Origin: Antedon mediterranea
Taxonomy: Eukaryota; Echinodermata; Crinoidea; Comatulida; Antedonidae
DNA length: 64,000 bases
Assembly: GCF_964355755.1 (NCBI RefSeq)
Contig: NC_092672.1
Location: 5,084,001-5,148,000 of the forward strand
Reading direction: 5' to 3'
The stretch's first letter is position 1, and every line of letters starts with the position of its first letter. A model generated the notes under the pieces. It had not been told where the DNA came from. It did no database searches and saw only the letters and a list, made by a program, of their open reading frames with translations. This document shows positions 4,112-62,417 of the stretch, in pieces. The position numbers and the translations under genes are program-made.

Positions 4112-7100
4112 ATAAACCAGTTTTACCACCTAAGCCACTTCTCCAGACAAATGCCCAGAGTCAGGATATATATGAACGTGAGCCTTGTATACAACGTGAA
4201 CCGGATATCCCAATTGTGGCTTCCGCACCGGTCTCGGTGCCGATCAAGCCCTGTCTGCCAGTAGTACAAGAACTATCTAGAGATCGTGAACAAGAACGTG
4301 AACAAAGAGAACGAGAGGAAGAGAAACGGGAGAGGGAACGGGAAAGGGAACGTAGGGAGTTGGAAATTCAGAGAGAAAGGGAAAGAAGAGAGAGGGAACT
4401 TAGTGAACAGAATAGAGGCTTCACAAAAGCCCCAGGCTGGCCCAAGTGAGTTTTTAAACTTTTTCTTTCTTTTATTGTTAAAATACTTGTAGGTGTTGTG
4501 TATTATCGGATCACTAAATAGTTAAGCAGTTGTTATGTCAATAAAAAGGGTTATTAGTGGTTCTTAGCTGTATTGTGAGGACAATTTGACTTTTTAATTT
4601 GTATTCTATTAATATTAAGAGTTCATACAAAAATGTACCATTCAATACAACATCATAGTTTGTTTTATGAAAATATAATTTATTTCCTCCAATGACCTCT
4701 CTTATGCTTGAATATGTCAATCTGTCATTTACTATGTCATTTATGCGCTGTTTTTATATGAGATATATAACAAGAAATGCAGATTCCATTTATGTCAATT
4801 GCAGTGTAACGATCCATCCGACAGATTGTCAGCCTGGGGATCTGTTTAAAGCCCTAGGAGCCATTTTGATTGAGGAAAGTAGATCCTTAGCAACTAAAGG
4901 TCAAGCATAGCAGCTGGGCAAATTAGATGCTGTTCTCTCATGCAGTGACATATATTAATGAAACCTACCCATCACCTGTGGGATTTCTATAAGGGTAAAT
5001 TCAATAGAAAGAAATGTCAACAAAGTTTTACAAAATTGCAGCTCTCCGGCAGTCTGTAGGCAAATGCAATTAGGAGAATAATTTACTTCTCTCTGACAAA
5101 CATCTTGGTAGTGTGTAACAGGAGGTCAAATGTAGCAAACGTTCCAGCAGTTCTCTGTTTGACTTCGGGGCAAAAACAATTATGCTAACACCCAGTGAGG
5201 TATAATTACATTAATCAGAAACGAAATACATCACAATTGGAAACACCATGTTTATGTACAAACGCAAAGAGAAAGTTTTTTACAACCCTTTTTCGTCATA
5301 ATGAGATAACTAATTCAATTTGCTCTCTGTCTGATGACAAAAATGCTTGACAAATGGGGCACAACGGTTTTACAAAGTATTCAACAGGCCTACTTTCCAG
5401 GAAGACGCATATCTTTCTGGTTTTATTACATGTACTTTGTATTGTGTTGCTAATTTTAAAACTAAATTAAGATGCAAGGACTGTTTCTATTGACGGGAAA
5501 TAAATTATTAGAATTTATAATGATGTTTGCATGTTAATTTTCAAATTATAGATTCTATTAAATATACTCTTAAAATGTAAACCAAATAGTCATTGCCATA
5601 GAATGGTACAGTTACTAATTATTTATTAATGGATGATAATTAAATATTTTTAATATTCTTGATTCTTGAATCATTAATTAATGTATTTCTAATGTTAAAT
5701 TTATGTTAGTGCAGTTGTTATCTAGTATCATTCATTTAATAATAATAATTATTATTATTAAATGAATGATATTATGCTTTGTATTAAATATTGTATGGAC
5801 TACTATTCAAATATGTACAGTAATAATGAATAGCAATTAATACAGTACCAGTATGATGCTTCTCCGGACAAACACTTAATAAAATTATATAAACCATATT
5901 AATTAATTAATAATCTATCCATACAGTTCTATATTTATTTTGTTAAAACAAATTTATTTTGTGACATGACAACCTGCATTCATGGCACTTTTTATTTTTG
6001 TCCTGTGTTTTTTAATAATTGACCTTATTGATTAATAGATTTATTTTCTTTGTTATCAGAATTATAAATGTAAAGTACTGGTTTTATTATTGCTGGCAGG
6101 GATTAGATGTAAATTAGAAAGATTACTAATCTATTGATTATGAATATGAAATATATCTCATTGACTAAATGAGCTGTTTGATATGAAATTCTTCATTGAT
6201 GTTTCATCTGATCACAACACTGTTGCCAAATCAATTTGTACTTTAAACCGTTACCGTATGTTTTAAATATATCTCGTTGACTAAAATTAATTTGAAATTC
6301 TTCATTGATGTTTCATTTGATCACAACTGTTGCCAAATCCATTTCTACTTTAAACCGTATGTTTTAAAATTTTACAGTGTCACAAAATCGATCACCCCGA
6401 GTGTAGCGCATCTGTCACGGTCTACGCCGACGCTACCGTATTCGGCACCGTCGCAGACACCGACATTCTCGCACTCATCGCCGATACCACCGAATCATTC
6501 AGTGCAGCGTAATATGTACACACCCTCTCTGCCGCCTCCACCACCGTTGACGTCACCAACAAATCACAATCAGACACCGTTTGCTGCAGCTGCCGACACC
6601 GGCTACAATTATTCAAGTAAGTCTAATTTTGTCTAAAATTACTGCAGTATGACTCGGAAATTCTCACCATAAATTCATCCATATTTAATTTTTGTCATCC
6701 TTTACTTTTAATATGCTAACAATTGCTCTTTTCCTATCATTTTCAATATTCATATTTTTCCAAAAGCTTCTCTTTTCTTTCCTAAAGAAAACATGGCATG
6801 GTACAGTGCAACATTTACTGGTATAATAGTTCCTCTGTTTTTCTGTCCTTCAGTAATATTTATTTGTGTAATTTCAACAAATATTTAAACTAATTTGTTA
6901 AATCACTTTTCAGATTGTTGATTTAATTAATGTTCATGTTCATTAATGTGCATTCGCTATTAATTTAAATTGATTAAATGATTGGATTCATGTAAATCTA
7001 TTATTTCTAACCCTTATACCCTGAATACGACTTTACCACGTTGAAACACCGGTTCTCGTCAGATCACCAAAGTTAAGCAACGTTGGGCCTGGTTAGAGCT

Positions 7101-10100
7101 TGGATGGGAGACCATCTGGGAATTGCGGGTGCTGTATACGTAGCTGGGGTCCCGTTAGGCATTTGAAATCAGCACTGCTGACTCTCCACTGCTGGTGGTA
7201 TATGAAATTATTTTGCACATAATTATTCCTGATGGTAGTCAATTACTATAAACTGAAATTAAATGCAATTACTGTAGTATTTGATTATCATTTGTGAATT
7301 AGTATTACCACAGGTATTAAGATAAGACCCTATTCTTTAATAGAGACAGCCAGAATGAGAAGGAAATGTAATCTAATAATTTTTTGTAATGATTCCAGGA
7401 GAAGCTTTATGTATATTTTTAGCTATAAGTTTACCTCTAAATAACAAAATAAAACCCTTCAAATTATAAATGTCATCACTATAATTTAGACCACATCATT
7501 GGTTGATCTGATTCAAGATTTAGAACATTTTAGAAGCTGGTCATACAAACATTTTCCTACCTCTGCCTGTACCCCAACAATTCTTCCTTTTTTCACTTTT
7601 TCATTAAATATTATTGCTGATGAGGTGATGTTGTTAAACTTTTGCTGATCATTGTGATTTGAACTTTTTGAAATTGTAATTGAAGAACCCTAATAATTTC
7701 AAAATATAAATACCATGAAAAAGAAAAAAAAACACAAATTATATTGTCATCATCAGTATATGTCCTAAGTGGGGTGGGCTTATACTAAGTTCAGTATCAG
7801 ATTTCCCAACATGACATGTCATATAAAGCATACACCGTATTCTTAATCAGTTTTAATTATATTGTAATTGGAAATTGGTTTTATTTACATCATTGCATTT
7901 TGTATAGCCCTTGACACTACTAGTGAATGCCTGCATGGTGCGTCTGTCACAGCCTGTCCTAACTTGTAACTTTAAAGCAATGTTGAACTTTATAAAAAAA
8001 ATTTCATGTGAAATTAATAACTTTAAAAGGTTACCTAATAATGTAAGAAATTTCGTGACATTCACGATAACAATCTTCATCTGATAATGAACCTTGACCC
8101 TACTTAGGACCTGCTGGGTCGTTGCAAGTATCCGACGAATGTTTGTGAAAGTCTTGGTGAGACTCCGACGTAGTTAATTAATCCAAAACATGGAAACCAA
8201 ATTCTAAACAGCTGTTTCCGAGCTGAATTGCTGGGAGAAACAACACAAATGCTGTGTGTCCATAGGCCCACACTGCACGCTTCACGGCTAGGCTGTTGAC
8301 TCACTGCCGTGTTGAAATAGCTCTCTGAGTGCTCACACACTCACAACCGAAGGGGCTAGCCAGTTCGGTACAACTAAACGTCGTAATTCTATAACAAACT
8401 GTGTATGTTTATAATTGAAATGGAGAACTAACATTTGGATACATTTTTTGGATTAATAATACTTGGTGTATATTATAAATTACTGCTGAAATTTCAGATG
8501 GACATGTATTTAAAATGATCTGTCGTCGTATACTGATTGAACGGTTGACTTCACTTTGTTTTTTCTCTCCCTACTTCTCTCTTATTCAGAAGGGCCACTC
8601 ACGCCGTTGGAACTTCATAACCGGAATCTAAACAACACAAAAGGTGGATATAGGTGGTTCTACTGCCCGTTTTGCTTCTATTGTTATCTTCTAACTTAGG
8701 CCTAGAATTAAGAACAAAATAATTATAATTGTTAACAGTTTCAGTGTGTTTGTCAGATATGTATGTGCTTTTGATGTTTGTTTGTGAGCATCACTTTTGT
8801 TGATGTTTTAACCGTAAAAAAAAAGCTAAAACAAAAAGTAATTTTACCGATATTGTTTGTTAAATTAGTAATACATAGGTGATATCTTCTGTGATTTGTT
8901 GTATATTTTCATTGATAATTTCACCATGTGTACAAATAAGTCATGTTGTCAGTACAGTATAGTATATTGATTCTATCTTGAAAAACTACTTTACTGCACT
9001 ATAATGCATATCCTCCCTCAAATTCACACATCACCTAATTAATGCTATATCTTAAATGCTTAATTACATTGTATAGTTCATTTAATTATAGGAAATATCT
9101 TTAAATTGATTATTTTACTTAAGTTACTTTTTTCGACTTAACTCTAAACTGCTTATACACACACATGCTTTTTTATTTCCATACATTATTTGAAAGTATA
9201 TTGCAACATTTTTGCTATCTTTTTCAAAATCTCGATCCTCTGATTTTAAATAATTTATCATTAAATTATGTAAATATCATAAATTAAAAGTCCCTAATTT
9301 TCTTGTTTGTTGCATTGTAATTATAAGTGGTTCCGCACCATTTGGATACTAAATTCTTTTATATTTAGCCAACCTGTTCTAACAAATTAGATTAGATAAC
9401 GTTAGGGATTAATTTATAAATAAACATGTTTTATTTTTCATTTCAGGCCAACAACATATTTTACGGAAGGAGCTGGACAAACGATTTCTCGCAGCTCATG
9501 ACAGAAGTATGTCAGTTGGTCCCCCGCCTTATATGAGAACGGAGACACACATGCACCAACATAATCATATGCATCAACACATGCACAGTCATTCATTCCT
9601 ACCCACTCCGGTAGGTAGCGCACTTGTGCCACCTCAGCCACCGCCGCACATGGTAAGTGGTCAACGAGTGCAAGTTGATAGTGATTAAGTTTGCTTTTAA
9701 GGAATCCTGTCTCTGCCTGGTTTTGTGTGTTGTTTGTCCATGTTTTGTAATATTTTTATGGAGACAAAATAAATGAGTAAAGAATCTGTACATGAGCAAA
9801 AGATCATAGATCCACTGGCCAATAAAACCCATGAATTTGTCCGTGACTATACTCGCTTTGGCCAATCAATTTGTTTTTATTGAACTACTGTATATTAATT
9901 TTTATGTACAACAATCTTTCGAACATTTTACAGTTTTTGATGAAGCTGTCCAGGCATGGCAAATTTAATTCAGGCGAGTCGGATTATGGATTTACTGGCC
10001 CGATGGGCTAGTTAAAAATTATCTTAATGAAAGTTTTTAGTGTTGAATTGATGAGTTGTCATTTCCCTGTGGTTTTAAAATGTGTTTCTCCTTCATACAA

Positions 10101-13100
10101 ATTTAAACTTGTTTATACCTTTTATGATTTAAAAACATATCGGCAATAAGGTCATTATCGTACAGATGGAACAATATAGAAACACATGTAACGATCTACT
10201 GTGGACATTTAACAAAATTGATTGATTACATGGCTATTTTATGGAAAACACAGAGTGGTTGGCCAGACAAGCTTGTTACAGTCTCATTCATAAGTTTAAA
10301 AACGTGTCGTAAGCACGTACAATAAATAAGATGGGATTACACGCGCATGTCCGCGTGACAACTTACTGTCATGTGTTACATCTCAGAAGATTTGATAGTC
10401 GACGCTCCATTGCCTAGTTTAGCCTCCGAGCACATTCTTGAGCCTCTTCCCTCATGCTAAAAGTTGTTGTTAGTGATGTAAAGTCAAAAACACATTAGAG
10501 GATGCATGTAGGAGATGCGGGACTTACGTGACTTAGCATGCAGCCGCACAATTAACGTGGAATTGCTGTAAGCTGGAGGATTATATCGTTCAAGATCTGG
10601 CTCATTAATTTGGAATTTGGAACATGAATTAATATCTTTAAAGCTGCTTGTCATTTGTCAATTAATTTTGTAACACGGCAAACATTTGTGACCTGAAAAA
10701 GTCAATTTTTTGTCATGTGTAATGTCGACTTAAAATAAACTAGAAAATAATCACTTGAATATTTATTTTTAACTATTTGGTATATTTCATATCATAAATT
10801 TCTCAATTATCAATTAATTAATTTTTTAATTATGTGTTGCATTAAATATTTGTTCCTTTTTTTTTTATTCAAACAGCTCGGTGTTGGTTTTCCACCAAAC
10901 TTGCCTGCTATACCGCCACCCACGTCTGTTCCAAGCCAAATAGGGATGCCTCCTAATTCAGCATTTCAACCCAAGGTAAATAAGTTCCTCAATCAAATAT
11001 CTACCATAATTATTCATATTAATGTCCATTATACAAACTAATGTAAATTATGTAAAATAATTTAGTGGAGCTGTAGCTTGATTAACATGCTTGCCTTCCA
11101 ATCCCAAGGTCCGGGGTTTAATCGTAATCTAGTGCCAGGGTGGTAACTCACGACTCTTTCAACTCCACTCCCTAAGCCTCAAATGAGACTTAAAGGGAGA
11201 CTTAGATTTTTCATTTCATTTATTCAATTTCGGCACAATAAATACAAATTCTATACAATACCAAGAATTACTGTAATGAGTGTATGACTTACTATTCAAC
11301 AGAAAATACATGGTTATAAAAAAATAATTTTATACTTTTTTTTCTCCCGCTGGAGTTGTATTACAACTTTTCATGGAATGTCCCTTGTTATCTTCCGTTA
11401 TTTACGTTCTTTGTATTGCTTTTAATATTACCTCATTCAATACAATAGCATTTTAAAGTTTGATCTTGTACCTTTTATGGCTTAATTTCTCTGCTTTTGA
11501 ATTCTTGAGCTTAACTTTGCAAGTAGGTGATAATGAGGGGATAAATCAGTCATAAAATGTTGTCTGAGTAGGTACAATTATGGCAAATGTTAGCTGTGGG
11601 GTAATCATCAAAATATGATCTATTTGTATGATTGCACTGTGCAATGTATTATTGTTTATTAAAAATATTGTATTGTTTAAAAGGTTTGCATGGAGAATAT
11701 TAACACTAATAATTTAAGGTTTGCAATAAACCATTTGATTACATAAAAAAGAAAATATATGTTAAGAGAATATATGTTAAAAGGAATGTGTCAACATTTT
11801 GGTTGTTGTGGTACAACTTTCTTCTGGAGTAAATGCTAGGCAGAGGGGAATATAAAGTGAGCACTGCACAGTGGTTGGTCACACAGACTATAGAATGGTA
11901 CAGTAGATAGTGCAATATTATAGATAAATGCATTATTACACTTTTTGATTCGTTTATTACTACATTTTGTTTGTTACTATGTATTAATTTAATAACGGTG
12001 TATTCATTTTGTTATTTTTACAGAAACAAGGGAAGTGGTGTGCAGCCCACGTTACTGTGGCCTGGCTTATATATCACCAACAACAAAAGGTACAGAATAC
12101 ACAGTATATAATATCAATTTGATAAAAAATATAAATGTCAAATGCCTAAATTATATTGTAATTGTAACAAAAAGGCTTTAATCACAACTGAGAAACAATC
12201 CCCTATTTTAGAAAAATTATGATCATATTATAGTTTTTCTTTAAATACAAAGATTAATCCATAATATATAGTTTATTCTTACCCAGATGCATTGTAATAT
12301 TTCTAATTAAGTTACATGATATATTATGCACTTTTAACTATAGAAAGCAGAAGCTCAGAAGGACCAGTTAAAGCCTGATATATTCTCTCGTCCAGCAGCT
12401 CAACTGATGCCTCCTCAGAGGCCTAGCGAGCACTCTGCTCCACCTGGATTATTTCCACCAGGTAATAACAAAAGATTTACATGATCAGTCGTTGTTCTAA
12501 GTTGTATAAATAAATATTTGTATAATGCAACTATTCATAGGCGAATCCGAATGGAGTCAGCTGATTTGGCAGCACAGGCAAAACGGTAAACAGAGGGCAT
12601 CTCTTCTGGTTGGGTTCCCATCATGCAATATTCAGGCCGAGCACGTTTCAAAGCTTTACATGCAGCAGAAATAGGAAAAAATTAAATCAATCCAATGGCA
12701 ATAATACACATTGGTGTATACACTAATTTAATTCATAACAAAAATGTACCTTGCCAATTTTCAATCAGTAAATAGTAAAGTAAAATAGTAAAAGTAAAAA
12801 GTACTGTGTACTGTATAGCCAGAGGAATATACCTAGTCAATTTTTAGTTGACTAGGTAATAAAGTCAATATCCTAATAAGTATAGCAGAAAGAATTTACC
12901 TAGTCAACTAAACATTTACCTAGTAAATTCTTAGTTGACTAGGTAATAAAGTCAATATCCCAATAAGTATAGCAGTAAGAATTTACCTAGTCAACTAAAC
13001 ATTTACCTAGTCAATTTTCAGTTGACTAGGTAATAAAGTCAATATTCCAATAAGTTTAGCAGTAAGAATTTACCTAGTCAACTAAACATTTACCTAGTCA

Positions 13101-15991
13101 ATTTTAAGTTGACTAGGTAATAAAGTCAATATTCCAATAAGTATAGCAGTAAGAATTTACCTAGTCATCTAAACATTTACCTAGTCAATTTTAAGTTGAC
13201 TAGGTAATAAAGTCAATATTCCAATAAGTATAGCAGAAAGAATTTACCTAGTCAACTAAACATTTACCTAGTAAATTTTCAGTTGACTAGGTAATAAAGT
13301 CAATATCCCAATAACAGTAAGAAGGATAATTAATTTAAATCCTGCATTATCCTATTGCACTTTCAGAATCATTTATCTCTATAAAACTAAGTAGCAAATG
13401 TTTTAGTACTGTAATGCTTCTTAGAATTATAATTCATAGTAGTCTGTGCATCTATAGCTTGTGCATTTATTAATGCGGTACAGTAAATTAAACTGTATTG
13501 ATAGATTGTATGCATTATGGTGTAGGGTATAAACATATTGTTCACTGCAAGCAATTGTAGACGGTTTCTGTCAACGTAATTTTCTTTTGTGTTATATTCG
13601 TTCAACATCAGCAACAACAAAATAGTTTGTAATTGTTTTGCATGTTGTAAATAAAACTAAAACAACGGTAAAGAAAGTTAATAAACACCATATATTATTC
13701 CTATTTAGATCGTTTGGTGATTTAAAGTGTTTTACCAAAGATAATTAAATTTTTCAATAATATTCATTTCTGTCCTAAATTCATTTCTACCTTTTATAAA
13801 ACAAAAAAATGCCAAAACATATCGCTTAGTTTTGAAAAATATTGTGCCCTAAAGGCTTTAAACTGTTGACTGAAAATAAGAGTATAAGGGTATATTGCTA
13901 GTAACTATAAACTGTGTATATACAATACCAAACAGAATTTTATACATATTGATGTGATATTTTCACCATGTATAATACCTTTTTTTAAATGTTTTTTTAG
14001 GAGGCCCATCTGGACCTCACTCTGCACTTGGAGGACCTCACCCAAGTGGTTTTATTGCTCAGAGTGCTGGACAACTTGGGATGCCTCCATTTCCAAGACC
14101 TCAGAGCTATGGGCCTATTGGCACTCCAGTACTACCTAGGAACGGCTTAGGTAAGCGAGGTAAAAACATAACAATTTATTTCAATATATAAATCATGTAT
14201 CATCAAAGTTTTAGTAATTTGTCACAAAAGAAAATGTTAATTATTGCATAATTAATAGAATCGATAAAAACATAATTCTTTTTTATTAAAATTAGGTGTA
14301 AAAACACAAAGAAACATTCAACTAGAAAATTAACCACAACATCTTCTACAATCACAACCTAAAATTGTACTGTTTTGGCTTGAAAATGTCCCCTTCTACT
14401 GTAGTTGGACTTTTAATCTGCTTTATGAATACCTAAATATAAATCTTCTTCTTTCTGTAGGTAATGGTATTACAGGGTCTATGTTTAATGGTCGAGATAT
14501 GCTTGGCCTACATGGTAATCATTTACCTTACAATCGGCTGCATCGTACACCTCCTGGCTTTCCTACCCCACCGCCTCCTTCAGGCTGGCCAAAGCCAGAT
14601 TCTAAAGATCCTTTATCCAGAATCGAAATGGAGAGGGAACGTAAAGAAGAGGAAGCTCGTAAGGAAAGAGAGAGGGAACGAGTAAAAGAAAGTTTAGATC
14701 AAGATAAAGAAAGGTTAGATTTTACTTTTGTGTATTTGTTTTGAATTAAGACAGCCTACACTAAACAGTAAGTTACATGATCAAATGGACCTCCTTCAGT
14801 AAAGACAGCAAGAAGTGGCAAATTCTGAGTTGTAAAAGGCTTGTAGCAGCAAAAAATGCTGACATGGATTTTGCATCCTCATCCCTCTTTCTATTCATTT
14901 ATCCTGATGATTTTAACAAATTTACTGTTTTCTTTTTTCATAGACCTGGAGAAAGACCAGGTAAATCTTCTACAAGTCCAGATCGTTGGAATAATGACAA
15001 TAAAAAAGAAGAAAAAGACCGACATATGGACGGTCGGGAGAAAAACATTGATAGGGATGGAGAACATTCTAAGGACTTAATTCCTAAATTAAATGATCAT
15101 AGGACTCGTGAGGGATCAAGGTCCCCTAGCACACATCATATGCATCGACGAGATATTAAAGAAAGTGCTTTTGATAGCGTCGGACATTGTTTAACAAATA
15201 AGGAGGAACGGAGGGAATATGATGTAGCTAAAGAAAGGTCAATAGACCAGCTACACAGAGACCCATTACACCCTGGTATTGCAGCGGTGGGCTCCATGTT
15301 TGAAAGACGGGGCTTAGGAATATTCCCTCCCAGCTATGCCATTGAGAGGCCACCTCCAGGTATTCCCATGATGCCGTGGGATGCCAGAGATAATTATATT
15401 CGTAGTAGACAAGAGAGCTTTCAAAGAGAACATGCATTCCGACAAGAATACGAGCGTGACCGTATGTTACGCAGCGCAGCGGCCGCAGCCGCTGCCTCAG
15501 GCCAACCAATGGGACCAATTATTGAACAAGAACGATTTAGAGACCGTGAACCGCATGATTTTACTAGAGATAATCCTTTAGCGGTCGATTCTTATCGTAG
15601 TAGAATAGAACAGGAAAGATTACACGTTCACCAGCGATTGCTAGAGGAACGTGTTTTACGTGAGGAGGCTGAGAGGAATCGAATGCTGCAAGTTGCTCAT
15701 GAGCACGGACAAATGATGATTCCCTCTCACCCTGCTCTACCGCCATCGTTGCATAACAGTTTACCTTATTCCAGGTCTAGTAACTTTTTCCAAAATTCAA
15801 TTATGCTAAAAGCATCACAGCCACCGCCGCTTGTTCCTACCGCAAGTATAAATAGTACATTTGGTTCAAGCCAACGTAGCAGAGGTCCATCTCCCAGTAC
15901 TCTTCAACCAAACGGTCGCAATAACTCGCCATTGGATAGCTTAGCCTCCAAAGAAAAAGCACTATCTGAAAAGGATGCACACAGTCGATAG
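4112..15991 (+). CDS. AUTS2: AUTS2/FBRSL1-family chromatin regulator, 5' end outside window
   Basis: Coding exons with matching GT/AG sites and phases: 4112-4445, 6378-6616, (8590-8643, see separate entry), 9447-9652, 10877-10975, 12024-12089, 12344-12461, 14001-14150, 14461-14713 and 14944-15991 (stop TAG at 15989). About 855 residues are present. Order of features: an Arg/Glu-rich charged stretch (first exon), a Pro/Ser-rich exon with PPPPPLTSP, the [17 protein letters not shown] block followed by GPPPYMRTE and a His-X repeat ([17 protein letters not shown]), then [34 protein letters not shown], and near the C terminus [19 protein letters not shown]. All of these match the human AUTS2/FBRSL1 core in the same order. 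Family knowledge: AUTS2 is a nuclear subunit of a non-canonical Polycomb PRC1 complex with PCGF3/5 that can activate transcription. The protein begins in phase 1 at 4112, so at least one upstream exon is missing; I could not find it in 1-4111. Which of AUTS2, FBRSL1 or FBRS is closest cannot be decided; an invertebrate would be expected to have one ancestor of all three. Confidence 0.94.
4790..5410. promoter_or_regulatory. candidate conserved non-coding block between AUTS2 exons
   Basis: Roughly 600 bases of complex, non-repetitive sequence between the exons ending at 4445 and starting at 6378. It contains no AUTS2-like exon. Composition differs from the flanking A/T-rich DNA. A regulatory role is a guess that needs cross-species alignment. 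Confidence 0.22.
5726..5771. repeat. 46-bp perfect palindrome
   Basis: TATCATTCATTTAATAATAA continues to its exact reverse complement ending TTAAATGAATGATA, with no spacer. It is built on an (AAT)n/(ATT)n core inside an AUTS2 intron and could extrude as a cruciform. Confidence 0.9.
6151..6369 (+). repeat. direct duplication of an intron 3' end
   Basis: Two diverged copies lie back to back: 6151-6266 and 6267-6369. Both run from ATATATCTC(A/G)TTGACTAAA through GAAATTCTTCATTGATGTTTC to ACTTTAAACCG...TATGTTTTAAA. The second copy ends 8 bases before the acceptor of the exon at 6378, so the splice-site-proximal part of the intron was duplicated. Confidence 0.85.
7022..7142 (+). rRNA. 5S rRNA-like sequence, probably a dispersed pseudogene or 5S-derived SINE head
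   Basis: About 120 bases align end to end with metazoan 5S rRNA. The internal control region is best preserved: AGTTAAGCAACGTTGGGCCT (box A region), GGTTAGAGCTTGGATGGGAG, then ACCATCTGGGAATTGCGGGT (box C region). The 5' third is more diverged. There is no T-run directly after the 3' end, as a functional Pol III 5S gene would need, and it sits alone inside an AUTS2 intron. A retroposed copy or a 5S-headed SINE3 element fits better than an active gene. Confidence 0.75.
8094..8355. other. complex non-repetitive intron segment
   Basis: About 260 bases of balanced composition just upstream of the candidate cassette exon. It is open on the minus strand (78 codons) but the translation resembles nothing I know and lies antisense in an intron. 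Possibly a regulatory element. Confidence 0.2.
8590..8643 (+). CDS. candidate 54-bp cassette exon of the AUTS2-family gene
   Basis: A strong acceptor (long C/T tract, then TTATTCAG) precedes 54 bases that are open in the phase-1 frame and encode roughly [18 protein letters not shown], followed by a GT (GTGGAT, a mediocre donor). It is symmetric (phase 1 to phase 1), so including or skipping it keeps the downstream [10 protein letters not shown] block in frame. The flanking exons also join directly to give an in-frame serine, so this may be alternatively spliced. Confidence 0.55.
11065..11215 (+). mobile_element. tRNA-derived SINE, family a
   Basis: Starts GTGGAGCTGTAGCTTGATTA, with a Pol III A-box-like segment followed about 40 bases later by a B-box-like GGTCCGGGGTTTAATC. 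The body (CAACTCCACTCCCTAAGCCT) is shared with the reverse copy at 56848-56990. It lies in the intron between AUTS2 exons 10975 and 12024. Confidence 0.75.
12828..13315. repeat. 87-bp minisatellite, about 5.5 copies
   Basis: The anchor GTTGACTAGGTAATAAAGTC starts at 12847, 12934, 13021, 13108, 13195 and 13282, exactly 87 bases apart each time. Each unit also holds TTACCTAGTCAAC, the inverted form of the anchor, twice, so each repeat can fold on itself. Located in an AUTS2 intron. Confidence 0.95.
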
Positions 15992-29040: not shown

Positions 29041-29070
29041 AATGTAATTATTGACCAATTTACAGACAAT

Positions 29071-42775: not shown

Positions 42776-43230
42776 GGGGCATTTATTTGAGGAATAAAGG
42801 CACCGGGGCATTTATTTGAGGAATAAAGCCACAGGGGCACCAGGGCATTTATTTGAGGAATAAAGGCACAGGGGCATTTATTTGAGGAATAAAGCCACAG
42901 GGGCACCGGGGCATTTATTTGAGGAATAAAGGCACAGGGGCATTTATTTGAGGAATAAAGCCACAGGGGCACCGGGGCATTTATTTGAGGAATAAAGGCA
43001 CAGGGGCATTTATTTGAGGAATAAAGGCACAGGGGCATTTATTTGAGGAATAAAGGCACAGGGGCATTTATTTGAGGAATAAAGGCACAGGGGCATTTAT
43101 TTGAGGAATAAAGGCACAGGGGCATTTATTTGAGGAATAAAGGCACAGGGGCATTTATTTGAGGAATAAAGGCACAGGGGCATTTATTTGAGGAATAAAG
43201 GCACCAGGGCATTTATTTGAGGGTGTTTAT
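42776..43230. repeat. 29-bp minisatellite inside a TACCGTA-ended element
   Basis: The unit GGGGCATTTATTTGAGGAAT+AAAGGCACA repeats about 14 times. Some units carry an extra GGGGCACC or a C-to-G change (AAAGCCACA) arranged as a higher-order repeat at the left. The array ends in GGGCATTTATTTGAGGGTGT and the element closes with CGAATAAATACGGTA at 43296. A 111-codon frame on the minus strand is an artefact of the array. Confidence 0.93.
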
Positions 43231-44060: not shown

Positions 44061-44134
44061 CGTGTCACAGGCAGCCAATCTTACTATAAATTTATTCTAG
44101 ATACACACAGCGAAAAACATAACAAAATGTGTCA

Positions 44135-50100: not shown

Positions 50101-50886
50101 TCAGTATGGTATACTCACAATGAATGGACATTCCAACTGCTTGACATTTCTGGTAACGACAATATGCACATCGCCCTCTTGTGGTCTTTTCAATAGTACA
50201 AAAGCCATCTTTTTGGCATTTTATGATCAACGTTTTGTTAGCGATGCATCGCCTAAAAAAGCCCTATAAGAAAATAGGATTGATTATTAAATACTGTAGT
50301 ATGTTCATAAAACGCTCAGACTTCAGTGTAAATTCTGTACAAATTTCGTGATATTAATACAAGTTTTTATTTTTAAATTATTTTTCACACCAGTGTAGGC
50401 GTCTATTAAACAAGAACAACCAAATGCTATATATTTTGTCAATTGAATTGATACCCAAGTACAAGTATACATGTATATTTGACATTTTTGTATTTAAATT
50501 TGAATAGATAATATATCACTTGTAATTTTAGCCGATTCTCGGTACTGTACCTTTTTCTCAAGTATCATAGAAATACTTGGTAATACAACATCACATGTGT
50601 TTCACATTCAAATGTATCTAGTAGTAACCTAACCCTTAAACTAACCTTACATGATACAGGTATCACATGTGATATAAATGAGTGTAGTATGTAAAGATAC
50701 AGCACTGGGATTCCTGTGTTAATTGTACGGATTTGAATTCTACAGGGGAGAACACCGTGTACTTACTTTACATCCTTCACATGAAGCTATCCCATAGTGT
50801 ATCCCTGAAGCACTGTCCCCGCAAACTCGGCATGAAGTGAGCGACGCTTTTGGTTGCATTTTATATTTTTTCGAAGGATGAAGCAT
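44135..50886 (-). CDS. divergent NR1-like nuclear hormone receptor, complete
   Basis: Minus-strand exons 50767-50886, 50119-50263, 49636-49817, 46504-46719, 44882-45134 and 44135-44382, all in phase, 387 residues. The first ATG (50886) has an in-frame stop TAA 15 bases upstream and no AG between, so the A/B domain is only about 18 residues; a second ATG is at 50859. DNA-binding domain: [20 protein letters not shown], zinc Cys 19/22/36/39, P-box CEGCK, then [11 protein letters not shown] and the second finger C56-KDG-C62, C72, C75, ending QKCQAVGMS. The extension [12 protein letters not shown] resembles the VRFGR..K box of NR1 receptors (E75/Rev-erb, E78, PPAR, ROR). The ligand-binding domain has [20 protein letters not shown] (helix 3-4 signature), [15 protein letters not shown] and a terminal AF-2-like PELMDEIL. 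I cannot assign it to a named subfamily. Nuclear, DNA-binding transcription factor; ligand unknown. Confidence 0.95.
44465..44865 (-). mobile_element. LINE 3' fragment in receptor intron
   Basis: Starts at a (ATTC)n-type tract (TTCATTCATTCATTCACACA), which on the minus strand is a 3' tail. It continues with sequence such as GGGAGATCGTTCCATAG, whose minus strand echoes the WN(D/S)LP region seen in the complete LINE. It lies between the last two receptor exons. Confidence 0.5.
47280..48540. repeat. 51-bp minisatellite with open frames on both strands
   Basis: The unit TCACCAGCATCAAATTCACC+AATACCATCAAGATTGTCAACTTTACCATCA is repeated about 20 times or more, with a degenerate left flank from 47280. 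Because 51 is 17 codons, frames stay open across many units: [17 protein letters not shown] on plus, [17 protein letters not shown] and [17 protein letters not shown] on minus. It sits in the receptor intron between 46719 and 49636. Two units carry one-base changes that shift phase, which argues against selection as protein. Confidence 0.95.
48867..49097 (-). other. open segment with splice sites in receptor intron (possible alternative exon)
   Basis: 231 bases bounded on the minus strand by an acceptor (CATGTACAG) and a GTGAGA donor (an alternative GTAAGA donor follows at 48848). It is open in the receptor's phase-0 frame. It encodes [16 protein letters not shown]..., [20 protein letters not shown] and a basic KKRKKR stretch. 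Its neighbours join perfectly without it, and the main model needs nothing here. It could be an alternative exon inserting into the start of the ligand-binding domain, or chance. Confidence 0.25.
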
Positions 50887-51012
50887 ATCAAGATTTAGTT
50901 ACAAATGAATTCAATGCAGGCTTCACGTATCAATGCGACCTCATGCTCTATAAACAGTTTGAACTACTTCCAAATCTCTCAAGTCTACCAAATGTGTACT
51001 GTACTGTACTGT

Positions 51013-51790
51013 AAATCAAAAACCATGGTTCAACCAAAATTGAATGAGCACGGTTCAACCAAAAATGAATGAGCATGGTTCAACCAAACATTAATGAGCA
51101 TGGTTCAACCAAAAATTAATGAGCACGGTTGAACGAAAAATTAATGAACACGGTTCAACCAAAAATGAATGAGCACGGTTCAACCAAAAATGAATGAGCA
51201 TGGTTCAACCAAAAATGAATGAGCACGGTTCTACGAAAAATTAATGAACACGGTTCAACCAAAAATGAATGAGCATGGTTCAACCAATAATTAATAAGCA
51301 CGGTTCAACCAAAAATTAATGAGCATGGTTCAACCAAAAATTAATGAACACGGTTCAACCAAAAATGAATGAGCACGTTTCAACCAAAAATTAAACACGT
51401 TTCAATAAAGAATTAATAAACGTTCAACGAAAAATCTATGAACACGGTTCAATAAAGAATTAATAAACGTTCAACGAAAAATCTATGAAAACGGTTCAAT
51501 AAAGAATTAATAAACGTTCAACGAAAAATCTATGAAAACGGTTCAATAAAGAATTAATAAACATTCAACGAAAAATCTATGAACACGATTCAATAAAGAA
51601 TTAATGAATGTTCAATAAAAAATTAATAAGCACAGTTCAATAAAAAAAATCATGAATGTTAAACCAAAAATGAATGAACACGGTACAATAAAAAAATAAT
51701 GAAAGTTCAATAAAAAATGAATGATCACGCTTCAACCAAAAATGTGTAAACGGTTCAACCAAAAATTAATAATCATGGTTCAACCACTTT
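51013..51790. repeat. 25-bp minisatellite upstream of the receptor
   Basis: Units GAGCACGGTTCAACCAAAAA+TGAAT, about 16 copies, followed by about four copies of a 47-bp higher-order unit (ACGGTTCAATAAAGAATTAA+TAAACGTTCAACGAAAAATCTATGAAA), then degenerate copies. It begins about 130 bases upstream of the receptor start codon, so it lies in or next to the promoter or 5' UTR. Confidence 0.93.
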
Positions 51791-54127: not shown

Positions 54128-54460
54128 CAAGCACCTTTGAACACTATTTGTATGGATACCGGCACTATTTAAGTCTGATTGATTGATTCCAATTTCAGTA
54201 GCCCCACAAGCCTAAGAAAACCCATCAAACATCAGTCTTCACTTCAAACGATGTCTGGGTTGCAGATTATTAAATTAAAAAAAAAAACTGAACTTTAACC
54301 CTTTGAATACCCATTAAGGTACACTTATTTTTCTACCCACAATTAAACATTGCCTTGGGCAACGAAGTTGGACTGGCGCCATATAAATAAAACAACTGAT
54401 TGATAATAATGTTACTGAGTGATTGTGTACTAGTAAATGCGTTTCAATCTCTATTTTCTT

Positions 54461-57400
54461 TTAAATAACGTTGATATTAGGTTCACAGTGAAGTCTTTTC
54501 CTTGTTTTTTGCTCAAGGCAAAAATCTTTATCTTTCGGTGAAGGTATTCCCTTAATTGGCCATATCATAGATATCGGTTCAATGTATGTTTGTAAGGTGC
54601 CTATTTTGTGACCATAAATAACCGACTCAGATGATCTGTGAAAGGTAAAACAAAAAAATATTGCAATTTAACAAATGTATATTCGGAATAAATTAAATAA
54701 ATTCAAATGCCAAAAGAAAAACATTTTTAGTAATTAATGCCACTTATTGACCAAGCTCAATAGAGCGGAGAACGTTTGAAAAAAAAAAAACATTATAAAA
54801 TTATACAAAAAAAAATACAGTCCATAAAAGCTTGTTTTTAATAAATTTAAAGTTTTTCAACAATTACAATCATTTGCAAATATACATACAAAACACATAC
54901 AAATATGCCAACATTTTTTAACTCTGTATAAAGCTCTGTCTACACTATCAAACTTTATGTGACAAAAGAATGTGATGTGCACATATGATAATATGGACAT
55001 GATGATTTCATATTACTATCACATTTGGGCCCTTTTTGTGTAGACAGAGCTTAAGATTATTAATTTAAATAAAACCTGTTTATGTAAATATATAGACAAG
55101 GTAACAGTAGTTAATTTGCCACAATTTATTTGAAAATGTTTTCACAAATGTTTTTAACGATACAGTACTGTACGTGTAAATTATCTACTTGGTAGAGGGT
55201 GAGCAACAGAAAAACATGGTTTAAAGCTTTGTCTACACTATCAAACTTTATGTGACAAAAAAAAAAAATGTGATGAGTCCATATCACTACCATATTTGGG
55301 CATATCACTACCATATTTGGGCATATCACTACCATATTTGGGCATATCACTACCATATTTAGTGTAGACTACAAAGCTTTAGTATAAAAATCATGTGTCA
55401 GGAATCTTAATGCAAGTGAGTATATCCAACACAATGATGTTAGTTGTAATGGTAATTTTCATAGTACAAAAGGTTTATTTTAACCAATGTTAAAAACACA
55501 TGTTTTACACAAATGCTTATTACAGAAGAAAACATACTGTCTTTATATCTATTATTTTTAGGAATCCTTTTGTACTATAACAAATTATGTAAATTACCAA
55601 TGAATAATTTTAAACCATCATTTTATCATTATTATTCTAAACCTAGATCACCATAAATGAATTACAATGTTAGATAGCTATTACTAATAATAATAGATTG
55701 TTTAAAACATACAATAGACAAAAGAATTTACCAAGGTGGTTGATAGATATTCAAATATTTAACCTATTAAAAATTCTAAAATTAAGAGTTTATAATCTGA
55801 AGTGGAAATGTGATTCTAATAGAAAGAAAATAGCCTTAAGTACCGCATCATGAGTCACTTAAGTACTGTAAGGTAATAAGTGAAAAAAAAAATACTGAAC
55901 AAAATACAGGTAAACTGCATGTAGTGTTTTTAGAAAGCTTGCCACTTACCGTAAATCTTCTTATTGTAACCCTGGGTTATTATCGTTTGATTGTTATTTA
56001 GGGTGGGTTACTATTAGAAGGTGGGTTAACTATAAGAGTAGTGGGTTACTATTACTAATCTTAAATTAAGCACTTGAAAATAGTAACCCATCCCAACTAT
56101 TCCGGTCAGCAACTCATAGCAAAATAATAAAACAGTACAAATAAACAAATTTAACTAACTTTATTTTATTTTATAAACTCAAAAACACTCAATCCTCCCC
56201 CACTCCCAAGATCAACATGCATTATCTCCCTTATTTTCAAAATACAGCTGCATCATAAGTTTTTGTGACTCTAATAGGAAACTCCCACAGGTTACTATTA
56301 GAGTAGTGGGTTACTATTATAGATTGACTTATAAGGTGGGTTACTATTAGAAGATTTACGGTATTTCTAGCTGTTTACTTTATCGTTTTTATTCAGATTT
56401 TTACTTATTTTGAAATATACATAAATTAATAAACAAAATAACTAACCTTAGCGTCAAGTCCGTAATACTAGGATTTTCTGTGAATACATGTTTGGCGAGT
56501 TGAACTGAAGATGCGTGGTTCGTTAGTTTGTAATTTAAACCTGCAATATTAAAATAATATATTACACAATTTTTTTTTTTTTTTTGAAATACAATCTATT
56601 TATTTAATCTGTTTACTTAATATTTTTTCTTATATTATTATTTTTATTGTTTACCATTGTACCAATGATTGAATAATATTTTATTGTTTACCATTGTACC
56701 AACCAACAATATTTAATTTAAAAAAACAAATTGATGTTAAAATGTATTGTCACCCGAAACATTAAAAATAAAGATTTTATTTCATACGAGTAATTCACTA
56801 ATTACAGGATGGATAAACTATTTTATACTTTATCGTGCTTATAAACTCTCTCTCTCTCTCATTAGAGGCTTAGAGAGTGGAGTTGAACTAGTTGGAACTA
56901 GGTCAGGATTGAACCCAGGTCAGGATTGAACCCTGGACCTTGGGATTAGAAGGCAAGCATGTTATTAACCACCAAGCTACAGCTCCACTAAATAAATCTT
57001 ACTTTCAAGTTTTTGATCCCGTTGATTAACTTTAAGAAATCTATAATTCTTAGTCTCATCCTAATGAGAAAACAAAAAAATTAATTAATGAGAAAAAAAA
57101 AATTAATTAATGAGAAAAAAAAATTAATTAATGAGAAAAAAAAATTAATTCAATTCGCTCCAATTGATATAAACAAAAATGCTATCTAAGCATGATTTTA
57201 TTGGAATTATTTGGAAAATCATTATAAAAAATAGATACAAGTTAATTACTGACATTTTTTTTTTACACCATATTTAATAAGGGTGATCCATCCAGCAATT
57301 GCTGATCATTAGGGACTCTCAGAGGTTCACAAGACAAACAAATACACAAGATACATAAACAAAGTCTTATTACAAGTCTTGGGAGTGGAGTTGTAATTTT

Positions 57401-60400
57401 GTCCTCAGAAAAAATCCTGACATGTGACGGGACTTGAACCCAGGACCCTTGGAGTGTTAGCCAAGCATCATAACTACCAACAAATAGATACCTTTGACCA
57501 ACAAATATGCCAAAGATCTAGAAATAAGATTAAAGATGCATTGTTTGGCAAAAACATGAAAAATGAAGATTAACAAAAATCAGACTTTGAATAAGCCATT
57601 TTTTAGTTTTAATCACTTCCGTAGAAACAAAATGTTTTTCACCAACGACTAAATTCGACCAAACACCAATTGACTGACAGCCAATTTGACTATTTTTTGC
57701 TTTAAATTACAATTTTTTCAGGTAAATCCTTTTTTTCTGATCCCATTTTTGTGGGAAACACATGAAAAACTGTTATGTAACAATAAAATGGCATATTAAA
57801 TTTTTTTTTTCAGAGGGGCAAAATACACATGGAAAAACATTAGAAAGTCTGTGCATAGTCACAAATTAAACCAAAAGACTAACTGCCAATATTGATGATA
57901 TCTTACCATTGTAAGTGGTGTATCAGGTACTGGTACTTCATTCAATTCTGCTTCCAACTCACCAAGAACTGGGAGTACCATCTTCCACTACAAATGATAT
58001 CAATTGATCAATTTGGAATGGATCAAATTATAGTATAAAACTTAAGCTTGGTTCCCACTAGAACGTAACGCAAGGACGTAAACGCAACGCAAGCGTTTTA
58101 ACCAATGACAAGCAAAGTTATAGGCAGTTAGCAATCACAAGCGAATAAGCCATCGCTTGTGATTGGTCAATTCAGTTGCGTTGCATTACGTCCTTGCGTT
58201 CCGTCGTTAGTGGGAACCATGCTTTACTCCAAATTTATATTTCATCTGTTATATAATCTAAAGTTCTGTCTACACTATCAAACTAGTTTGACAAAAAAGT
58301 GTGCCCAAATAATATGGTCGTGATATGACATCATCATGACCATATATGGGCACATCACATACATAAGTAAATACATTAAACTCGATTTAAATATATTGAA
58401 AATATTTCACTTAATCAAATTGTATTCTACCCATTATTTGTATTTCCACTTTTTTACTGTGTTTATTTTGTTTCCATTAAATGAATATTTTTACCTAAAT
58501 CCTAACTTTATTAAAGTATACATGATGCAATAATGGCCGAATAATGGGGGAATTTAGAACTTACCAATTTATTAATGACATGGGCATCATCTCGCAGTTT
58601 GTAGTCCATAATAATGAGTACAACCATTTCAGAATGAGCTTGCACATATAAACTACATTTTTTGAATTCACGCTTTAAAAACAAAAAAGTTGAAGTTCAC
58701 ATTCTAGTTGTGTACAGTAATTGTATTCCAGCGCAGTGGGGCAGCAGGATGTACCTGACTGAGCGAGCGTGCGCCACAGTCGTGATGTGTGACAAATAAA
58801 TAAATATTGGTAAAACAATGATGCTGCTTTACAGTATTAGACAGGTATCATCAGAATTATTTTACTATAATATATTTACCTATAAATTACAACTACTAGT
58901 AATCAATTAAAAGTATTTTAATGTTTTTTTTCTATACAAAAGTTGAAAATCTTCCTCGACGGGGGAGCTACCCACCCCCGCCTGCTCCCTGGTGCCACCA
59001 TGGTCCCATGTTATCTTTCAAAACACAAACCACTATTTCTAGCCATGAAAAAGGAATACCAAAAAATGTTTTTAATGTTAAAAGGTTTAAGTCCCACCTT
59101 AGTATCAAAATCTTTGGTACAAATTATGTTGAGCAAATCATCTTTCTATGTAAAGATGAAATTCTGTAAATCATTTTTTTAATCAATCTTGCCGTTCGTT
59201 GTATAATCTACCATATCATATAAATTATCATTTTTTTACGTTATGATTTCATAAAAGCAAACAAAAGAATTAAATTTCAAACAATGGAGCATGTGGTCAG
59301 AATTATGGCTTTAATATTTACGTAAAACAGATTGGATGACATCAGCAAAATGGTTTCAACTCATAGATTTACCAGGGAGTTGTAAAATAAGTCAACTCCC
59401 TGGATTTACTATACTGTCAACTACGCGAAGCGATTCTAACAAAAGGGAGAAACTAGGCAAAATGGCTTCTGTAGTTCTGTTATTTATATAATTATAAATT
59501 AGAAAAAAATGTTTAAATGATATGTTTAGAGAGAATAACCATTTCAGCTTAACCCACGGTGCTGTAAAACAAGTGTAATAGTGCATAGTACAAGTAAATA
59601 ACATATCAAAAGGCCTATTGCAGCCACCATATTGTCTGGTCCCACTCTCCATGAAGAATCACTTTTGATAATATTTCAACTATAAAAAATATCATTATGA
59701 GAAAATCAGATCAGACAAGACTTGAACTCAACACCTTGGGATAAGTAGACAAGAAACATAACACCACTGTTGATTTCCAACAAAAAAATCTTTTTTATAA
59801 ATTTATAATTTGATTTGCTATTTTACTTCAATGTTCCTGTACGTTATGTTTCTTTGTAAACTCCTTCTTCATGTTAAATTTTCTTGTGGTAATTAATGTT
59901 TATAAAAATGGCGTTTTCTATAGGCTTTACCTCTTATGGGGTTTTAGAAAGCATGTGTTTGCATCCGCGAATCATGTATGCTTACTATATTATTACAATT
60001 AAAAATAAAACGAAAATAAGTCTATTTTAAATGTCTATTCACAATATATTTATAACACATGATTGTATAAAATGTTGCTAAAAAGTAGAACTGGTAGTTG
60101 GATATCCTAATACCAATCTGAGGTCTTGGTTCAAAGTCTGTCACCTAATAGCGGTGTCACCTAATAGTGGTGTCCCCTGAATAGGGGTGTTGCCTGAATA
60201 GGGGTGTTCCCGGAATAGGGGGGTTACCTGAATAGGGGTGGGGGGGGGGGTTTCCCTGAATAGAGCTGTCCCAAAGAAGCGGTGTCAATCTAGAAGCAGA
60301 ACTTACCCGAGTGTTTGATACCATTGATGATTCTCTTTGTTCGTAACACGGTTCAAATGAATCTGCATAAACTTCAGAATCTGTTTCTCTTTCACCTGAT

Positions 60401-62417
60401 ACACACTTCTGCTCTTTCTCTTTTGTTGTTCCTGAACTATGCTCTACTACTGAATTATATTCTGCTGAATGCTTGAAATCCTGTCCATCTGATTGATCTA
60501 AAGCAACACAGTTTTTATCTTTGTTTGCTAGACTTTCTGAAGCGTCTAAAGCCACAGAATTATTTCTGTCAGAAGACGAAGTGGAATCATGATCTTTAAA
60601 TTGTAGAAGAGGTGTCTTATTCGATGATACAAATTCTTGATTCCTATTTGACGTTGGCAAAGATTTTAATCCTTGGTTAGCTATTTTCAATGTTTGAAGA
60701 TGTGGAATGTCAGTTGTAACTTTACAATTACTGTCCGAAACTTGATCTGCTAGATCAACAGAAGCACTTCTCTTTTTCAATGTGATTTCTAATGCTGGTG
60801 GACATTCCTTCTCCTCGTTCATTTCTATATAATTTACTTTTTCTATTCTCACAAAATTGTCATGATTAAAACCATTTTGAATGCATGATACACCTTTCTC
60901 AACTGTTTCTTGTTCTGTGGAATATTTGGTACAGTCATCTGAATTATTTGAATTGATTGATTCTACTCTTCCATCAGATTTATTAGTCTCAATGTTTCTG
61001 TGTTGAATACCAACCTTATCAAACTGTACATTTTCATTTTGAATTTTATTTTGGTCATTTGTAGATGGATGAATACATTCTGAATCTTTTACAGAAGTTG
61101 GAATTTTATCGGTTAAAATATTGCTTGATACAGATTCCGATTCAGACTGTTGACTAGGTGAAGGTAACTGTTGACTAGTTGAGGGTGACTGTTGACTAGT
61201 TGAATCCAAGTGTTGACTAGTTGAATCTGACTGTTGACTAGTTGAAGGTAACTGTTGACTAGGTGAGGGTGACTGTTGACTAGTTGAGGGTGATTGTTGA
61301 CTAGTTGAAGTTAACTGTTGACTAGTTGAGGATGACTGTTGACTAGGTGAAGGTAACTGTTGACTAGTTGAAGGTAACTGTTGACTAGCTGAAGGTAACT
61401 GTTTACTAGGTGAGGGTGACTGTTGACTAATTGAAGCTGGTAGTTGACTAGTCAATGGAACCTCTAACTTCTTTAAACTAACGGTCTCAAATTCATCAGG
61501 TCTTAGATAAATTGGTATAATTGAAATCCCTCTTGGTAGTGGAAAATCAGTATCAGCTGCTAGGAAAGACATCTGAAATTAAAATATTTTATATAATTGA
61601 AATATTCTATTTATTTTCATTTTTTATTGTTGAAAATTGTAAAAAATTGCGTAATAAACATTGCTAGTCTATTACTCAGTCTATTAAACATTAAATCGAC
61701 CAAATATAGTAACGATAATGGAACAGATGCGCAGATTAATATTTTTTTTAAATGACTTTTTCCTTTATTAAATATTATTTAAGAAATTTATTGTGTTCGT
61801 TTCAAAAGTTATTAATGTTAGCATCCTATGAGAGCACACCTAAAAGAATAGATCTATATTATAAAAGAGAGAGTTTGTACATTCGATCGTTAAACAACAT
61901 TTTTTTTTCACCATACACGTTTAGTTTGTCAAGCAGAATTTAAGCACACGTTTTCAACAAATTCTATCCAAGTATATCCAAAGTTTATAACCTACAGTAT
62001 AGGGAAGGGAAAATGAAAAAATTACAATTTGCAATTTGTTTAGTGGGGTCCGGACCTCTGTGATAAACACTCCCACCCATTCCAACTTACCCGCCTACTC
62101 CCTCTCCCCCCAACTCACACAAGCTGCACCTAAAAATATTAATTAAAATGCAAGATAAACTGCATGATTGACTTATTTTTTCCAATTTTTTTTTAACATT
62201 TTATTCTGCTGCTTTTCTAAAAAAAAATTTCCATGGAAGATTTATGGATGGGGTTGTTAAAAATATTCATTTTTATTATTTTAATGTTTTAATAACTAAA
62301 ATAGTTTATGTGTAAACAGCACAATTTATGATTTAAATAGTTTTATTTATATAATTTACCATAAAATGTATTATAATCCTACCAAGTGTTTATGTCGTTG
62401 AAAAGGATCTGTGACAC
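54461..62417 (-). CDS. HPS4: HPS4, BLOC-3 subunit, C-terminal part (5' exons outside window)
   Basis: Minus-strand exons 62383-62417, 60307-61572, 58565-58672, 57907-57987, 57003-57060, 56447-56540 and 54461-54635 (TAA), all in phase, about 605 residues. Anchors to human HPS4: LPRGISIIPIYLRPDEF (human LPPNVQIIPVFVTKEE), CSLYVQAHSEMVVLIIM, VLGELEAELNE, YRFLKVNQRDQKLE, NHASSV and the terminal GIPSPKDKDFCLEQKTRKRL (human [20 protein letters not shown]). The large exon holds a Ser/Gln/Pro heptad-repeat region and a long, acidic, Ser-rich linker, matching the unconserved middle of human HPS4. The ATG at 61572 is internal: a 35-base exon joins to it in frame. Family role: HPS4 with HPS1 forms BLOC-3, the exchange factor for Rab32/38 on lysosome-related organelles. 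The N-terminal longin region is not in the window. Confidence 0.93.
54929..55053. mobile_element. family A MITE, just beyond the HPS4 last exon
   Basis: TAAAGCTCTGTCTACACTAT at the left, GTGTAGACAGAGCTTA at the right. Located in the last HPS4 intron. Confidence 0.85.
55222..55381. mobile_element. family A MITE with internal triplication
   Basis: TAAAGCTTTGTCTACACTAT at the left, AGTGTAGACTACAAAGCTTTA at the right. Inside, CATATCACTACCATATTTGG+G is repeated four times in tandem (21-bp unit), showing how these elements grow minisatellites. Confidence 0.85.
55947..56363. mobile_element. 417-bp element with TACCGTAAATCTTCT ends
   Basis: Left TACCGTAAATCTTCTTATTG, right the inverted ATTAGAAGATTTACGGTA. 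The interior is a loose series of GGTGGGTTACTATTA modules. In an HPS4 intron. Confidence 0.8.
56848..56992 (-). mobile_element. tRNA-derived SINE, family a
   Basis: The minus-strand head TAGTGGAGCTGTAGCTTGGT, then AACATGCTTGCCTTCTAATC and B box GGTCCAGGGTTCAATCC. A small internal duplication (AGGTCAGGATTGAACCC twice) and CAACTCCACTCTCTAAGCCT link it to the copy at 11065. It ends 10 bases from the HPS4 exon at 57003. Confidence 0.75.
57061..57150. repeat. 21-bp A/T tandem repeat beside HPS4 exon
   Basis: About four units of TAATGAGAAAAAAAAATTAAT directly at the acceptor side of the HPS4 exon 57003-57060; the acceptor AG lies at the edge of the first unit (CTCATTAG on minus). Confidence 0.85.
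57262..57482 (-). mobile_element. tRNA-derived SINE, family b
   Basis: Second copy of the family at 32570: shares GGTGATCCATCCAGCAATTG, TCTCAGAGGTTCACAAGACA, AAAATCCTGACATGTGA and GGGACTTGAACCCAGGACCC in the same orientation. The tRNA-like head is cut short at the right end. Confidence 0.85.
58043..58225. mobile_element. MITE with long terminal inverted repeats (GGTTCCCACTA)
   Basis: Left TAAGCTTGGTTCCCACTAGA then ACGTAACGCAAGGACGTAA; right the inverted ATTACGTCCTTGCGTTCCGT and TAGTGGGAACCATGCTTTA. Arms are about 50 bases. In the HPS4 intron between 57987 and 58565. Confidence 0.85.
58259..58362. mobile_element. family A MITE, right end lost
   Basis: TAAAGTTCTGTCTACACTAT then CAAACTAGTTTGACAAAAAA, GACATCATCATGACCATATA and TGGGCACATCACA; the right terminal repeat is missing. 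Confidence 0.75.
60141..60282. repeat. tandem CCTGAATAGGGGTGTT repeat at an HPS4 splice donor
   Basis: About seven degenerate units of 18-20 bases including a 12-14 base G run. It lies 25 bases inside the intron after the donor of the large HPS4 exon (60307). Confidence 0.85.
61143..61440 (-). repeat. 21-bp coding minisatellite (heptapeptide repeat in HPS4)
   Basis: Fourteen in-frame units of seven residues with consensus S(T/P)SQQ(L/S)P. At DNA level TGTTGACTAGTTGAAGGTAA-like units on plus. Unit variants alternate LP, SP, SD and LD, and the frame is preserved throughout. Confidence 0.95.

Follow-up and report, generated by a model that had tools for sequence, protein, structure and literature searches.

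Six neighbouring genes of the crinoid Antedon mediterranea lie on a chromosome that very probably keeps most of ancestral linkage group G

A stretch of 64,000 nucleotides from the crinoid Antedon mediterranea, hereafter the window, carries an AUTS2-family gene (+), CHEK2 (-), CRCP (+), a CHCHD2/CHCHD10 gene (-), an NR1-type nuclear receptor gene (-) and HPS4 (-), in this order. These genes are linked, on the contig that holds them, with other genes of the human regions to which their counterparts belong. In our judgement the window very probably belongs, as an unremarkable segment, to a chromosome which keeps most of the ancestral chordate/bilaterian linkage group G, a group that was duplicated in vertebrates, where its copies lost different genes. 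The window spans positions 5,084,001 to 5,148,000 of contig NC_092672.1, here called C3 (other contigs are named in the same manner). C3 comprises 38,956,436 bases, which is 11% of the genome of 354,431,138 bases in 18 contigs. A search of these contigs for mitochondrial COX1 gave no match. One tektin exon scores 198.5 bits against the tektin of PDB entry 8snb, from sea-urchin sperm, and at most 136.7 bits against its four other matches, in line with an ambulacrarian animal. Human map positions used below are given as background unless a paper is named, and the query proteins were human sequences. Pfam runs for CHEK2, CRCP and the receptor were performed on hand-assembled exon composites. The genes, in window coordinates except for the last entry, are as follows.

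4063..15991, + strand: AUTS2-family gene, coding ORFs 4063-4449, 9413-9688, 12015-12095, 14334-14744 and 14765-15991
23710..29040, - strand: CHEK2 (FHA and kinase domains), both ends judged by eye
30493..34958, + strand: CRCP (RPC9), with matches inside 30496-30912, at 32863-32925 and at 34839-34958
35837..40770, - strand: CHCHD2/CHCHD10 gene, with matches at 36282-36187 and 36082-35849 and a putative first exon placed by eye at 40770
44135..50860, - strand: NR1-type nuclear receptor with DNA-binding and ligand-binding domains, from Pfam on the composite
54464..64000, - strand: putative 3' part of HPS4, last exon 54667-54464 weak, the rest by eye
C3:5,152,964-5,149,938, - strand: well-matched 5' exons of HPS4, beyond the window end

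The content and order of the six genes had been claimed in an earlier note on this DNA, and all six were found to be present as stated, five of them solid inside the window and HPS4 anchored beyond its end. The six-gene observation is confirmed, the case for HPS4 depending mainly on exons past the window end. The AUTS2-family gene is recognised by the Pfam Auts2 domain on two exons (4.2e-08 for 12015-12095 and 1.2e-13 for 14334-14744) and by three collinear tblastn matches of human AUTS2 to the genome; its ORF 9413-9688, searched alone against Pfam, gave no match. The start of the gene may lie further upstream than 4063. According to PMC7732068, AUTS2, FBRSL1 and FBRS are ohnologues, and the gene found here is the counterpart of all three human genes. 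The kinase exon of CHEK2 has human CHK2 as its top PDB match (4e-54), and the exon composite matches the kinase (6.8e-72) and FHA (2.4e-08) domains of Pfam. Human CRCP, searched exon by exon with tblastn, gave matches of 7.9e-13, 8.3e-06 and 1.9e-04, among which its first coding residues were not found; the CRCP composite matches Rpb4 at 4.6e-27, and its PDB match to RPC9 is weak (0.0017).

The CHCHD2/CHCHD10 gene is matched by human CHCHD2 at 4.7e-19 (tblastn), and its CHCH domain scores under the curated Pfam cut-off. CHCHD2 and CHCHD10 are paralogues, and the gene counts for either human chromosome, 7 or 22. The first exon proposed at 40770 was chosen by eye on an 8-residue match (E 8.8). 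A LINE-type element is present at 40178-37143 (-); its ORF 39323-37497 matches a reverse transcriptase domain (RVT_1, 5.9e-34) and is preceded by an endonuclease-like ORF recognised by eye. If the exon at 40770 is right, this reverse transcriptase would lie inside the first intron of the CHCHD2/CHCHD10 gene. Long minisatellites with periods of 15-154 bp also occur in introns and intergenic stretches of the window (12830-13314, 33015-34716, 42776-43222, 47509-48520 and 51027-51786).

The receptor composite matches zf-C4 (6.4e-26) and the ligand-binding domain Hormone_recep (9e-19) in Pfam. Its best PDB matches are to RAR, PPAR and LXR, followed by RXR, REV-ERB and VDR. A one-to-one human partner for the receptor was considered and rejected, the PDB matches being to several NR1 members. 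The earlier note had counted the receptor among the linked genes; as evidence of linkage it adds nothing, since with matches spread over several receptors no single human gene can be assigned to it.

HPS4 runs leftwards and so enters the window from the right. Human HPS4 (tblastn) matched the minus strand at C3:5,152,740-5,152,567 (6.75e-08), 5,150,015-5,149,938 (0.004) and 5,152,964-5,152,863 (0.13). These anchoring exons lie 2-5 kb past the window end, and the Pfam longin match (3.7e-11) also comes from exons outside the window. Among the 1,422 ORFs inside it, the best match to HPS4 is the last exon (54667-54464), which aligns with the C-terminus of the human protein, albeit weakly (E 0.11). 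No significant match to HPS4 was obtained for the other exons assigned by eye, a large one at 61578-60157 and small ones near 58650 and 57950, and the exon cutting inside the window is uncertain. This leaves the odds of the identification as they were, since it is carried by the exons beyond the window end. A 21-bp tandem repeat of 13.9 copies (61146-61436) lies in frame in the large ORF given to HPS4 by eye and would encode runs of S/T-Q-Q repeats.

The sequence was also read for 100 kb on each side of the window, with ORFs ranked by a score for coding character that had been derived from the exons of the window, a crude filter that can miss small exons. ORFs scoring 8 or more numbered 16 on the left versus 43 on the right. 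No gene was recognised among the ORFs so ranked in the left 100 kb. The right flank contains the following genes.

MTRFR: RF-1 domain; 4.5e-11 to the human C-terminus
PPP4C: seven matched pieces, identity 89-96% in six of them and 76% over the final 17 residues
ESS2: Es2, 1.1e-37
PPM1F-type phosphatase: best piece 2.0e-16, versus 3.4e-06 for PPM1A
Others: SLC13-type transporter, SLC6 monoamine-type transporter and fucolectin-like ORF (the last by eye only)
Coiled-coil gene: no Pfam match (one exon)

The SLC13-type, SLC6-type, fucolectin-like and coiled-coil genes are not assignable to human regions. We take MTRFR to be a gene of 12q24, PPP4C of 16p11, and ESS2 and PPM1F of 22q11. With these positions, all four right-flank genes that have a clear human counterpart fall within the human regions considered here.

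Linkage was then assessed at the level of the whole contig. Twelve test genes were picked by their human region, 7p11-q11 or 22q11-q12, and searched across the whole genome; eleven were listed beforehand, and STX1 was added later, before its search. BCL7 and STX1 also have human members outside chromosomes 7 and 22. Ten of the twelve (nine of the eleven listed in advance) are located on C3, where about 1.3 of twelve would be expected from the share of this contig in the genome. Their positions, together with those of the two exceptions and of the controls from elsewhere, are given below; HPRT1, DHFR, PGK1, EIF6 and RPSA joined the controls as additions to the original list.

Test genes on C3, lower end: SBDS 4.35 Mb, CCT6A 4.36 Mb, PITPNB 4.92 Mb, BCL7 5.46 Mb, MDH2 7.25 Mb
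Test genes on C3, upper end: TPST 35.26 Mb, STX1 36.36 Mb, PSPH 36.84 Mb, DRG1 37.51 Mb, SNRPD3 38.57 Mb
Test genes off C3: SMARCB1 (C2), UFD1 (C5)
Controls on C3, two of ten: TPI1 and GAPDH, both human 12p13.31
Controls off C3: PCNA (C6), TBP (C10), HPRT1 (C1), DHFR (C2), PGK1 (C5), EIF6 (C8), HSPD1 (C1), RPSA (C1)

PITPNB also gave weaker matches to a related gene, at C3:38.8 Mb and on C1, as did DRG1 on C1. Among the human neighbours of HPS4 and CHEK2, one of three is on C3 (SRRD); TFIP11 was found on C2, in one piece (4.7e-4), and HSCB on C7. The HSCB match (C7:619,490-619,705) lies within a single open frame of 319 aa, and this copy is possibly a retrocopy. Three of four genes of human 12q24, 16p11 and 17q11 are also on C3, namely aldolase (4.49 Mb), RAN (36.38 Mb) and RPLP0 (38.27 Mb). 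The fourth, ARPC3, has two near-equal matches, at C8:11.18 Mb and C3:17.97 Mb, which suggests that it is present in two copies, and it was not counted as a hit to C3.

Compared with the controls (one-sided Fisher test), the enrichment on C3 is significant for the twelve test genes (10/12 versus 2/10, p = 0.005), with the neighbours of HPS4 and CHEK2 added (11/15, p = 0.013) and with the 12q24, 16p11 and 17q11 genes added as well (14/19, p = 0.008). Against the 11% share of C3 in the genome, the corresponding binomial values are 1.4e-8, 2.5e-8 and 2.5e-10. In three of the searches a part of the candidates was scored, the best 30 of 34 and 38 of 52 for genes of the tested regions and the best 44 of 84 for the 12q24, 16p11 and 17q11 genes, and further gene copies may therefore be missed. 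Genes of the human regions 7p11-q11 and 22q11-q12 are thus linked on C3 more than by chance, in agreement with membership of linkage group G.

C3 is, at the same time, of mixed content. In addition to the controls TPI1 (10.65 Mb) and GAPDH (32.1 Mb), it carries enolase (11.15 Mb), PHB2 (7.9 Mb; a weaker relative is on C2) and VAMP (0.26 Mb), all three of the genes that were chosen after TPI1 and GAPDH had been placed. We assign these five to human 12p13 and the paralogues of that region. Because C3 also carries such 12p13-type genes, location on this contig does not by itself prove origin from group G. C3 is probably group G fused to another ancestral group and partly interleaved with it. An arrangement with group G at both ends and 12p13-type genes in the middle was considered for C3 and rejected in view of the positions of VAMP (0.26 Mb) and PHB2 (7.9 Mb). 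Joining of group G to another linkage group has counterparts in ambulacrarians: the sea urchin Lytechinus has a fusion of the G and D chromosomes and a brittle star a mixing of B3, G and O1 (PMC11175523, PMC11310086). The partner set on C3 would include the 12p13-type genes. This hint of a fusion involving group G could serve as a phylogenetic marker for the lineage.

The earlier note had also read the six-gene order as a likely ancestral linkage block. Conserved microsynteny was not found when C3 was compared with the human order, most of the tested neighbours not being kept. Genes that are close neighbours in human are distant here, the intervals being 30.2 Mb for CRCP and TPST, 32.5 Mb for CCT6A and PSPH, 31.7 Mb for PSPH and CHCHD2, and 33.5 Mb for HPS4 and SRRD; TFIP11 and HSCB are not on C3 at all. 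CCT6A and CHCHD2 are nearer to each other (0.76 Mb). A span of 0.23 Mb holds PITPNB, CHEK2 and HPS4, which are close in human 22q12.1, a looser sign in favour of a block. SBDS and CCT6A present the converse case, being about 12 kb apart in Antedon (matched pieces, C3:4,341,562-4,366,226) and far apart on human chromosome 7.

These data bear on an alternative in which the six genes would have formed a local block already in the deuterostome ancestor, one that some constraint, such as long-range control of the AUTS2-family gene, preserved until it was divided among vertebrate chromosomes. Between 4.34 and 5.46 Mb of C3, 14 genes of group-G type were recognised, the PITPNB, CHEK2 and HPS4 cluster among them, and the scarcity of coding-like ORFs in the left 100 kb is what a large regulatory gene might give. 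However, the same density of group-G-type genes is expected from a little-mixed segment of group G, and both the separation by 30-33 Mb, or onto other contigs, of genes that are neighbours in human and the proximity of SBDS and CCT6A speak against a preserved neighbourhood. The comparison with the deuterostome pharyngeal gene cluster is instructive. As described in PMC11175523, the genes of that cluster also occur together on one chromosome in several phyla, and there a tight order is kept between phyla, whereas most neighbours tested here against human are not kept. We therefore regard an ancestral local block as improbable. It is equally doubtful that the 4.34-5.46 Mb run is a surviving ancestral neighbourhood which the AUTS2-family gene, through its regulatory reach, would have held together in invertebrate deuterostomes and which would have been broken up only in vertebrates.

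Still less probable, to the point of being very nearly dismissed, is a chance or lineage-specific assembly whose match to human is coincidental and picked after the fact: of the six genes only CRCP, CHEK2 and HPS4 have a single human address (several regions are possible for the AUTS2-family and CHCHD2/CHCHD10 genes, and no region for the receptor), C3 is mixed with at least one other gene set, and four of 15 genes expected on C3 lie elsewhere, but with ten of twelve region-picked genes on this contig against about 1.3 expected and two of ten controls, the counts make chance assembly unlikely.

Retention of group G on C3 remains the preferred reading. CHEK2 and HPS4 presumably fall within the region around MN1 in human 22q12.1. 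According to PMC12146709, 100 genes round human MN1 (22q12.1) were mapped in 14 vertebrate and three invertebrate species, all MN1 homologues found lie in regions of one linkage group, CLG-G, and vertebrates and invertebrates seldom share a strict collinear order; CHEK2 and HPS4 do not occur in the main text of that paper. Seventeen chordate linkage groups, intact in scallop, and their duplication in vertebrates are described in PMC7269912, and PMC11175523 names F, G, N and I as those that show the lowest number of rearrangement states among ten species. C3 resembles CLG-G, the bilaterian group G, as so described for the MN1 region of deuterostomes (PMC12146709, PMC7269912), namely a unit kept with scrambled order and duplicated in vertebrates. 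It differs in that group-G-type genes share the contig with another set and that SMARCB1, UFD1, TFIP11 and HSCB are elsewhere; the location of these four, along with the near-equal matches of ARPC3 on C8 and C3, counts against the assignment. From the published work and the human map positions we infer the naming of group G, the step of duplication and loss, and the ancestry in other species. The literature searched, as far as its text was available, yielded no statement assigning 7q11 to group G. None of the terms used for group G was found in the hagfish paper PMC10972751, and the papers that turned up on synteny of CHEK2 together with HPS4 did not contain HPS4.

The linkage most likely predates the vertebrate genome duplications, as the earlier note had proposed: this follows from the count of test genes against controls together with the published placing of the MN1 region in CLG-G across deuterostomes. 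The companion claim, that the window joins human 7 and 22 content which was later partitioned, fared less well. Genes of 12q24 and 16p11 type are also present, and TPST1/TPST2 and CHCHD2/CHCHD10 have a member in both regions; because of these shared pairs and the 12q24 and 16p11 genes, the regions on chromosomes 7 and 22 are more plausibly duplicates of one another that lost different genes. We take human 7q11, 12q24, 16p11, 17q11-12 and 22q11-q12 to form one paralogon of the two rounds of genome duplication (2R), over which the families AUTS2/FBRSL1/FBRS, BCL7A/B/C, TPST1/2, CHCHD2/10 and STX1A/1B are spread. Counterparts of those families are found on C3; a literature search for a stated paralogon of 7q11, 22q12, 12q24 and 16p11 gave many clinical and cytogenetic papers, and this set was not found stated in the literature consulted.

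The arrangement very probably arose as follows. Genes of group G would mostly stay on their ancestral chromosome while inversions reshuffle their order, and for this reason any short stretch would show a handful of them, in the window the AUTS2-family gene, CHEK2, CRCP, the CHCHD2/CHCHD10 gene and HPS4. In vertebrates the same chromosome would have been duplicated twice, with the copies losing different genes. The survivors would now reside in human 7p11-q11, 22q11-q12, 12q24, 16p11 and probably 17q, which would make the genes look split between chromosomes 7 and 22.

The linkage seen on C3 is real, but it is ordinary macrosynteny of an ancestral linkage group that has already been published. 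It adds one further ambulacrarian chromosome to the known picture and opens no new question by itself. The window illustrates cleanly, on a local scale, that animal chromosomes hold on to their genes and lose the order of these, so that genes of human chromosomes 7 and 22 are neighbours in a marine invertebrate.
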